Shown in pieces: positions 926 to 35,336 of a DNA stretch of 40,738 nucleotides; position 1 is the stretch's first letter, and the number at the start of each line of letters is the position of its first letter. The notes beneath the pieces are model-generated. The model saw only the letters and a program-made list of their open reading frames with translations, was not told the origin of the DNA and did not search any database. The stretch covers positions 1 to 40,738 of the forward strand of contig JACDHS010000034.1 of NCBI GenBank assembly GCA_013820875.1, read 5' to 3'. Position numbers and translations under genes: made by a program. This DNA comes from Verrucomicrobiota bacterium. Its GTDB lineage: Bacteria > Verrucomicrobiota > Verrucomicrobiia > Limisphaerales > JACDHS01.

Positions 926-1124
926 CGCGTTCACGGGCGCATCTTGACACTGCCCCCGGTTAAGAATGATAGCAATATAGAAGGATGTTGGGCATGGGCA
1001 TCTCTCTGCCAAGAAAGCCTTTTGAAATCGCCTCCGAACTCGATCTCATCGGTTTGGGATTGCTTGGGATTGCGTATCAACCACTTACATTTGGGGGCAG
1101 TGTCAAGATGCGCCCCGCGTTCAC
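926..1124. mobile_element. MITE-like element with 23-bp perfect inverted ends and 9-bp target duplication
   Basis: Bases 935-957 and 1093-1115 are perfect 23-bp inverted repeats bounding a 181-bp element. The 9-mer CGCGTTCAC lies immediately outside both ends (926-934 and 1116-1124), as expected for a target-site duplication. The inverted repeats end exactly at these 9-mers. The 135-bp interior encodes nothing recognisable. The structure shows a non-autonomous transposon. A 9-bp duplication fits several DDE transposase families, but the mobilising family cannot be named from this sequence. Confidence 0.8.
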
Positions 1125-1421
1125 GCGTGTGATTTTAAACGGGTGAGGTGGGGTGCAGCTAAGGCCCAACGGGCCGCCCATTCCTCAGCCCAGGCCATCG
1201 GCCTAGGATGCAGCAAATTAGACCGTGCGGCCTGAAGGGCCGCGATTATCTCCTTCTGATAGGCGGTCGCTTTCGATCTCGGCCCTTGAGGCCTCAAATC
1301 TGGTAAACGACTAGACACAGGCCAATGGGTTGAGGGATTGCGGCCCGTTGGGCCTTGGGACAAATCGCGGCAATCGCCGCACGAATGTCCTCACCCGTTT
1401 AAAATCGCACCCCGCGTTCAC
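1116..1421. mobile_element. Second non-autonomous element (family B, copy 1) with 9-bp flanking repeats
   Basis: Bases 1127-1148 and 1389-1410 form a 22-bp inverted repeat with one mismatch, with core GATTTTAAACGGGTGAGG. The element 1125-1412 is flanked on both sides by CGCGTTCAC (1116-1124 and 1413-1421), so it shares its left flanking 9-mer with the neighbouring MITE. The interior holds a nested inverted repeat (AAGGCCCAACGGGCCG near 1161-1176, complement near 1341-1356) and several GGCC-rich palindromes. No credible gene is present. The same ends recur at 2645-2872 around a different interior. Confidence 0.7.
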
Positions 1422-1619
1422 AGGGCGCTGCCCTGGGTAGGGTAGCCGTCCTCGGCTGCGAGTTCACCGCGCCTTCCGCCCCGGTGTTCAGGGAATTCAG
1501 ACGCACTGCAAGAAACTGAGATGCGCTAATCACACCCGCGTCTGAACCACTGCGTTCTTCCACTGGACAGGAAGTGAGACTTTTCCTAAATTTCTAATCT
1601 CAGATTTGAGCTGAACAAC
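1422..1619. other. Spacer before the rhomboid gene with small palindromes
   Basis: No gene is seen. There is a short hairpin at 1421-1435 (CAGGGC, loop GCT, GCCCTG) and a 9-bp inverted repeat TTCAGACGC at 1496-1504 with its complement at 1538-1546. The rhomboid promoter should lie here, but no convincing -35/-10 pair or Shine-Dalgarno sequence could be picked out. Confidence 0.4.
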
Positions 1620-2495
1620 ATGCAATTTGCATCTCAATCCGTCCCTTATTTTACAATAGGGTTGATCGCGCTGACCTGTTGGATTTCCTATAAGGGATTC
1701 AAAAGCTCGATCTTCGTCGAGAAGTATATCTTTTGTCCGGAATCCATCCTGGCGTACAAAGAGTTTTATCGCCTGATCAGTTCCGGATTCCTGCACGCCA
1801 ACGTGTCGCACCTGCTCTGTAACATGGTGACGCTTTATCTGTTCGGACGAGGGTTGGAGATTGTTTTTGGGCCGATACAATTTTTCTTAATCTATTTCGG
1901 TTCGATTGTTGGGGGTTCAATACTGTCTCTTTGGCTGCATCGAAATCATGTTTACCAGGCGTATGGAGCTTCAGGCGGTGTTTGCGGGGTGATGTTTGCC
2001 CACATCTTTCTGTTTCCGGGCGGCAGTATCTCGATGTTCATGCTCCCGATCTGGATTCCATCATGGCTCTACGCAATTCTGTTCATGGTGGGATCGTGTT
2101 ACGGCATCAAACGGCAAAGCGACAACATCGGTCACGACGCTCACCTCGGTGGAGCCATCGCCGGTCTAGTGGTCACCACGTTGCTGCATTCCTGGATTGC
2201 GACGCAAAGCCCGAAGATGTTTGCAACGATCAGCATCAGTTCCGTGCTGATTCTGCTTTATCTTGCGAGAAACCCGATGTTTCTTCCGCGCGCCTCTGCA
2301 CCAGCGAAACCCAGCTTCCTGTTTCGAAAAACGACACGCGCAAAGAAATACGATGTGGATCACTTGCTCGACAAAATTTCAGGGCAGGGGATGGACAGCC
2401 TGACGCCCGACGAGCGAGCCTACTTGGAAAGTGTTTCCGACAAGTTCCGTCGGCGAGCAGAATCCAAAGCGCCGGAGTCCGAGTTGTATTTCTAA
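1620..2495 (+). CDS. Rhomboid family intramembrane serine protease
   Basis: Intramembrane serine protease that cleaves transmembrane substrates in the inner membrane. The 291-residue protein has about six hydrophobic segments within residues 8-215. The catalytic Ser118 sits in YGASGG, and the catalytic His175 in GHDAHLGG. An HxxxN motif (His64 to Asn68, in the second conserved segment) matches the oxyanion-stabilising positions of GlpG. After the membrane core, about 75 cytoplasmic residues contain a segment of the type KISGQGMDSLTPDERAYLE, a small domain often attached to rhomboids in this phylum (DUF6576-like). Start at 1620 is the first ATG of the frame and leaves a short N-terminus before the first membrane helix. 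No neighbour suggests a substrate. Confidence 0.92.
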   Translation: MQFASQSVPYFTIGLIALTCWISYKGFKSSIFVEKYIFCPESILAYKEFYRLISSGFLHANVSHLLCNMVTLYLFGRGLEIVFGPIQFFLIYFGSIVGGSILSLWLHRNHVYQAYGASGGVCGVMFAHIFLFPGGSISMFMLPIWIPSWLYAILFMVGSCYGIKRQSDNIGHDAHLGGAIAGLVVTTLLHSWIATQSPKMFATISISSVLILLYLARNPMFLPRASAPAKPSFLFRKTTRAKKYDVDHLLDKISGQGMDSLTPDERAYLESVSDKFRRRAESKAPESELYF

Positions 2496-2536
2496 ATGTG
2501 CATGGATTGACCCACGCACCTTCTTTGATGTTTAGT

Positions 2537-2562
2537 GTAGGTCGGGCATCTTGCCTGGCCCG
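2537..2562. repeat. Dispersed CATCTTGCC-type palindromic repeat, copy 1
   Basis: The core GGGCATCTTGCCTGGCCC is an imperfect palindrome and matches the segment at 17778-17803 apart from one indel and a few substitutions. Both copies begin GTAGG. It lies in the spacer after the rhomboid gene. It resembles REP-type sequences; no protein-coding role is apparent. Confidence 0.6.
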
Positions 2563-2636
2563 TTTCCTGGGGAGCGGCAGATTTCCAGTTGCCGACGAGA
2601 TGTTCCTTTGAGTTTTTCGCACGATCTGAATGGCCG

Positions 2637-2880
2637 GGCAGGATGTGCGTGATTTTAAGCGGGTGAGATGGCGTAAAAACGGAGCGCGGCTGTGCTCGAA
2701 GAGTCAGCCGCAGCGGGTACGGCAATAATTGCGGCGTTCAGATTTTGCAGGCCCGCTTGATATCTCACGTGTTGCGGCTGATGCTTCGCACAAATCAGAA
2801 CTATAGAAACAACGAACCGCGTCGCGGTTACGCCGCGCTCCGATTCCATCTCACCCGGAAAAAATCGCACCCGGCAGGAT
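2637..2880. mobile_element. Family B non-autonomous element, copy 2, with 8-bp target duplication
   Basis: The left end (2645-2671) and right end (2846-2872) are imperfect inverted repeats of the same type as those at 1125-1412, with cores GATTTTAAGCGGGTGAGATGG and its near-complement (poly-A variant). The 8-mer GGCAGGAT flanks both sides (2637-2644 and 2873-2880). The interior is unrelated to copy 1. It carries a forward copy (2680-2714) and a partial inverted copy (about 2774-2792) of another dispersed repeat that is also found at 35302-35336. Independent flanking duplications at two sites support real transposition of this family. Confidence 0.7.
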
Positions 2881-2941
2881 GGCCACCCCACTTTGTTCGT
2901 GAATATTTCGGCAATTCGTGTCTAACTTTGGCTGCTGCTCA

Positions 2942-35301: not shown

Positions 35302-35336
35302 CGGAGCGCGGCTGTGTGCGAAGCATCAGTCGCGGC
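35302..35336. repeat. Dispersed repeat related to 2680-2714
   Basis: The segment begins CGGAGCGCGGCTGTG and continues with a GAAGCATCAG core. It is closely related to 2680-2714 and, in inverted orientation, to about 2774-2792 inside the family B element. It can fold as a small GCGGCTG/CAG-type hairpin. It lies between the divergent aroE and cytochrome-type gene. Confidence 0.6.

Follow-up and report, generated by a model that had tools for sequence, protein, structure and literature searches.

The question raised by this locus is how two short elements come to carry the same ends around unrelated interiors, and what may have moved them. Both lie in the window, the whole stretch of 40,738 nucleotides of a Verrucomicrobiota bacterium (GCA_013820875.1, contig JACDHS010000034.1) that was analysed. 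An initial annotation had read them, here called A and B, as a transposable element family whose conserved short ends capture different sequence; the family is indeed one of transposable elements, while its nature as ISKra4-type MITEs had gone unrecognised. Most bacterial MITEs are explained as insertion sequences (IS) with the middle lost. Here the parent, the ends and the interiors can all be identified, and one interior is found behind two unrelated end types. A and B are very probably short non-coding MITEs of the ISKra4 family (Mutator superfamily) that are moved in trans and have exchangeable interiors, a reading drawn from the sequence: their ends are those of complete IS, target duplications and sibling copies are present, interior modules are shared, and one target occurs in three copies.

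Elements A and B and their end family

Both elements possess inverted ends of the form GGGTGYGATT-N5-YGGGTGAG, and, as had been claimed for them, separate target duplications of about 9 bp (Table 1). The end GATTTTAARCGGGTGAG is matched four times in the window, against an expectation of 0.26. The duplication is 9 bp long for A and 8 or 9 bp for B, where it reads either GGCAGGAT or, if the left end has lost one base, the 9-bp GGCAGGATG. Both are intergenic and flank a rhomboid-family gene, which A separates from a peroxiredoxin gene and B from a sulfatase gene; no ORF of at least 100 aa is present inside either. Two full-length siblings of A, C1:41650-41941 (92%) and C32:8089-8384 (89%), each have their own 9-bp duplication, and about seven near full-length siblings of B (C40, C163, C193, C60, C216, C9 and C177; 88-97%) occur in the same genome.

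Table 1. Features of the two type-1 elements, the adjoining type-2 element and their target duplications, with positions in the window.
Feature	Positions	Strand	Description
9-bp target CGCGTTCAC, copy 1 of 3	926-934	.	exact copy
Second MITE (type 2)	935-1115	.	181 bp; TIR GGGCGCATCTTGACACTGCCCCC at 935-957 and 1093-1115, 23/23 complementary
9-bp target CGCGTTCAC, copy 2, common to both MITEs	1116-1124	.	exact copy
Target duplication of A, CGCGTTCAC	1116-1124 and 1413-1421	.	exact copies
MITE A (type 1)	1125-1412	.	288 bp; TIRs ~1125-1148 and 1389-1412; inverted arms 1127-1148/1389-1410
Interior module M2 of A	1161-1356	.	bounded by AAGGCCCAACGGGCCGC / GCGGCCCGTTGGGCCTT; inverted repeat; also in other type-1 elements
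9-bp target CGCGTTCAC, copy 3	1413-1421	.	exact copy
Target duplication of B, left copy	2637-2645	.	GGCAGGAT or GGCAGGATG
MITE B (type 1)	2645-2872	.	228 bp; TIRs ~2645-2671 and 2846-2872; inverted arms 2651-2671/2846-2866
Interior module M1 of B	2680-2842	.	CGGAGCGCGGC...GCCGCGCTCCG, 163 bp; dispersed alone and inside type-2 ends
Target duplication of B, right copy	2873-2881	.	GGCAGGAT or GGCAGGATG

A and B combine the features by which MITEs are recognised, a length of ~50-500 bp, lack of coding capacity, TIRs, a target duplication, dispersed copies and ends common to an autonomous element. Their status as mobile elements is firm, and by these features they are to be classed as MITEs, very probably of ISKra4-type insertion sequences. 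Folded singly, the elements pair strongly with themselves (z -7.1 to -10.9), which is expected of any inverted-repeat element.

A genome-wide search for the ends, which the initial annotation had proposed, was conducted in the 5.7-Mb genome of 239 contigs, with copies examined in sequence stretches at the listed places. The two-block end GTGYGATT-N5-CGGGTGAG, with at most two mismatches, gave 53 + 63 = 116 matches, compared with 1 + 1 for a reversed-pattern control. In the stretches examined there are 23 distinct paired elements, the pairing script having returned 24, with one left end on C177 paired twice; a weak partner end was accepted if the duplication supported it, and a few pairs (e.g. 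on C199, C233 and C4) are weak. The ends thus do not, overall, occur singly, an outcome that had been considered at the outset; 15 of the 58 unpaired ends are situated no more than 230 bp from a contig edge, and for several more the partner has decayed. A stricter pairing rule, applied both here and in further genomes, yielded 42 paired elements with lengths of 84-408 bp, of which 20 have flanks identical at 8 or 9 of 9 bases (mean 0.5, maximum 4 in 2000 permutations) and 18 have flanks matching at fewer than 7 of 9 bases. Chance pairing of ends is ruled out by the reversed-pattern control together with the flank permutation. Across the order, 13 of the 146 genomes contain the exact end motif, many of them with 9-bp duplications.

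The parent insertion sequence

The GGG ends and the 9-bp duplication had suggested ISKra4 before any transposase search, and the search was restricted to this one family. In the own genome of the window it gave a match at C204:51020-52003, a gene that starts ~330 bp inward of an end which many MITEs carry in identical form, and in G004 and G096 it gave genes 20 bp inside the end motif. Complete type-1 IS were found in G022 with the own-genome protein as query (1435 bp, duplication TTGGAAATG on both sides) and in G031 (1425 bp, duplication CTCCATGAG, a TIR variant), and a further one with a broken gene in G120 (1401 bp, flanks matching at 8 of 9 bases). Related genomes carry complete ISKra4-type IS of ~1.4 kb with the same ends and 9-bp duplication as A and B; the relatives that bear names are bins of Verrucomicrobia, Spartobacteria and Opitutales. 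Their transposases are 71% (G022), 64% (G088) and 52% (G031) identical to the own-genome gene, while a separate lineage in G050, which is ~31% identical, has ends GGGCGCATSTTGACACTGCCCCC that are also the ends of the second MITE in the window. The NCBIfam model ISKra4 is the best model for these proteins (E=3.6e-51 for the own protein, range to 1e-56), with scores of 174.6-192.9 bits below the curated cut-off of 205, so that the family name is to be taken as the best match and not as certified.

The ISKra4 family, which comprises the groups ISKra4, ISMich2 and ISAzba1 within the prokaryotic Mutator superfamily (p-MULT 4), is characterized by IRs 18-39 bp long and by target duplications of either 8 or 9 bp (PMC3942029), ranges that include the 23-bp IRs of the parent IS and its perfect 9-bp duplications in L252 and L258. 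The 23-bp ends and 9-bp duplications of the relatives' IS equal those of A and B, which differ from ISKra4-family IS (PMC3942029) in being gene-free and in having nothing detectable in common with them beyond the ends. In the own-genome gene, ORFA has 100 aa and stops close to an A9 run, and ORFB follows in the -1 frame; L252 has a similar pair of ORFs. With a small ORFA and an ORFB in another frame, the own-genome and G022 genes may resemble the ISMich2 group, in which two ORFs are joined by a -1 frameshift. The sole type-1 transposase gene detected in the own genome appears in L224 (G000:C204:50671-52010) and L334 (C53), contigs that are joined only via an exact overlap of 127 bp. As no right end is visible after the gene on C204/C53, the own-genome IS may be dead.

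An ISKra4-family transposase would recognise GGGTGYGATT-N5-YGGGTGAG at the element ends and integrate the element where the target is cut with a 9-bp stagger, which would generate the 9-bp duplication. Judged by their ends and duplications, A and B would be mobilised in trans, and if the ends alone are required for this, the interior could change freely.

Interiors and their exchange

Internal deletion is the textbook origin of MITEs, and A and B could be decayed internal-deletion copies of full ISKra4 IS whose interiors have diverged past recognition, as the match of their ends to the IS across 23-30 bp would allow. BLAST of the interiors against nine IS bodies confined the identity to these outer 23-30 bp, so that neither A nor B has the appearance of a truncated IS; sibling identities of 88-97% also argue against an old amplification, and both interior modules, M1 and M2, recur in unrelated settings. 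This origin is therefore very unlikely, and the related idea that the two are degraded forms of one long parent, which the initial annotation had weighed, is not borne out.

The interiors of A and B had been described as unrelated, and outside the ends the two elements indeed show no match; the interiors belong, however, to recurring subfamilies built from few modules rather than to one-off captures. At least five interior types stand behind type-1 ends in the own genome. Among 97 type-1 ends examined there, 54 are followed by M1 at a distance of up to 70 bp, with at least eight different linkers in between, and the remaining ones, sorted by eye, lead to M2, as in A, or to other recurring sequences. 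M1 is also the dispersed repeat of which B had correctly been said to carry pieces, with 188 exact borders in the own genome and 3 in the control. Of 100 M1 borders listed, 63 have no listed type-1 end in the surrounding 300 bp, but decayed ends do lie near some of these, e.g. L353. M1 further occurs inside type-2 ends (C63, C68 with the duplication TGTCTAATC, and C54), and alone, without ends and without duplication. Of the 146 genomes, 34 contain M1, among them G005 and G090, neither of which has an exact type-1 end. Since M1 is present behind two unrelated end types as well as without ends, the exchange between ends and interiors is, on this distribution, real, and the two combine independently.

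By which route M1 came to be enclosed is something that we infer. Capture by the ends is possible. That M1 is instead an independent mobile or REP-like palindrome which inserts into MITEs has a chance only slightly short of even: its borders are fixed, it is commoner than the ends, it is found alone and in genomes such as G005 and G090, and the linkers between it and the ends vary, whereas target duplications are absent around M1 both alone and inside MITEs, and repeated capture predicts the identical pattern. The earlier proposal of short ends that capture different sequence is supported in part by the sharing of M1, which either capture by the ends or entry of M1 into MITEs may have produced. 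The same interior in two unrelated end types makes capture versus insertion testable within one genome, and with few end types combined with few recurring interiors this genome offers a bacterial case for studying cargo acquisition by mini-transposons.

Bacterial MITEs such as NEMIS, RUP, Nezha, QMITE2 and MITEAba12 resemble A and B in their 70-300 bp, TIRs of 15-30 bp, strong fold-back, intergenic position and target duplication, but differ in that here one end type has many interiors and one interior occurs in two unrelated end types. TIMEs are miniature elements derived from Tn3 from which mosaic transposons are assembled (PMC4133298; PMC13367494); they likewise combine miniature elements of known parent family with mosaic structures, but their composites are bounded by two element copies and do not involve interior exchange within one element. 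No description of ISKra4-derived MITEs is apparent in the titles and abstracts of the four papers in the open literature that name both ISKra4 and MITE, and ISKra4 is absent from a 2024 review of prokaryotic MITEs in the open literature.

Some further interiors deserve mention. The window contains another M1 border (CGGAGCGCGGC) at 35302-35312, with no type-1 ends nearby. The M2-bearing copies L035, L037, L038, L044, L053 and C103:1-12 break at the common sequence CACTGCCATTTAGTTAAG, which may be the terminus of a different mobile element. In L136, L275 and L133 (C139, C34 and C175), type-1 ends are followed by a further interior that recurs and includes pieces such as GGGACAGGCAAGATGC and GGAAGCGCTGTCCTACC. 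The type-1-ended element at L131:5331-6149 (C173) is 819 bp long and contains a minisatellite-like array with units such as AAGTTTTTAAGCTCCATTTTTGGTTCCAAAATTATGTGCGG; inspection of ORFs and sequence in two long elements, including the one on C173, revealed no obvious captured gene or gene fragment.

A second MITE and an apparently shared 9-bp target

An additional MITE with a perfect 23-bp inverted repeat, which the initial annotation had missed, directly adjoins A. Its TIR GGGCGCATCTTGACACTGCCCCC is identical to one end of the 1.38-kb ISKra4-family element L223 in G050, the other L223 end differing by one base. In the segment 926-1421, MITEs from two distinct ISKra4 lineages thus stand end to end, and a 9-bp target is present in three perfect copies. 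As the three CGCGTTCAC copies surround two elements with unlike ends, they indicate that one 9-bp target has apparently been used twice; the adjoining MITE represents a second ISKra4 lineage and would share its target with A, the order of the two insertions being one that we infer.

Comparable arrangements were counted among 210 distinct ends, where nine back-to-back junctions have a gap of at least 5: one has a gap of 5, two of 6, four of 9 and two of 10, with none at 11-39. Under uniform gaps, at least six junctions at 9-10 have P ~1e-6, a post hoc value, as the window case prompted the count and neither the 9-10 class nor the match thresholds had been fixed before looking; one doubtful gap-2 junction was excluded, and decayed ends were accepted for some junctions. 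Similar to the window junction are those on C54 and C103, each with one 9-bp gap between ends. It is unlikely that the three CGCGTTCAC copies result from coincidence or recombination rather than from re-use of one target. This explanation would find room in the small number of known 9-10 bp junctions, only six, some with decayed ends, and in an exact order-wide search of 320 genomes for back-to-back ends, whose six matches of mixed gaps lend no clear support to the tandem-target pattern beyond the own genome; it is opposed by the concentration of six of the nine junctions at 9-10, post hoc as the computed P is, and by the 9-mer itself, which occurs in the window at 926, 1116 and 1413 only, that is, at three element borders. 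If it is upheld that two IS lineages used a single 9-bp target, this would point to a target preference beside existing ends.

Plant Pack-MULEs have Mutator-superfamily ends and ~9-bp duplications around foreign interiors. The elements described here resemble them in architecture, but their interiors are dispersed palindromic repeats, and inspection of two long elements gave no obvious gene fragment. A far-reaching and rather doubtful reading is that ISKra4 ends serve as capture modules which repeatedly enclose and spread unrelated dispersed repeats and which prefer 9-bp targets beside ends of other ISKra4 lineages, leading to tandem clusters, and would thus constitute a bacterial counterpart of Pack-MULEs.

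Separately, L132:232-370 (C103) has the appearance of a hybrid: its left end is of type 1, its right end is a decayed one of type 2, and its flanks are GCAGTCCAA / GCCGTCCAA. It may be composed of two tandem elements with a deleted middle.
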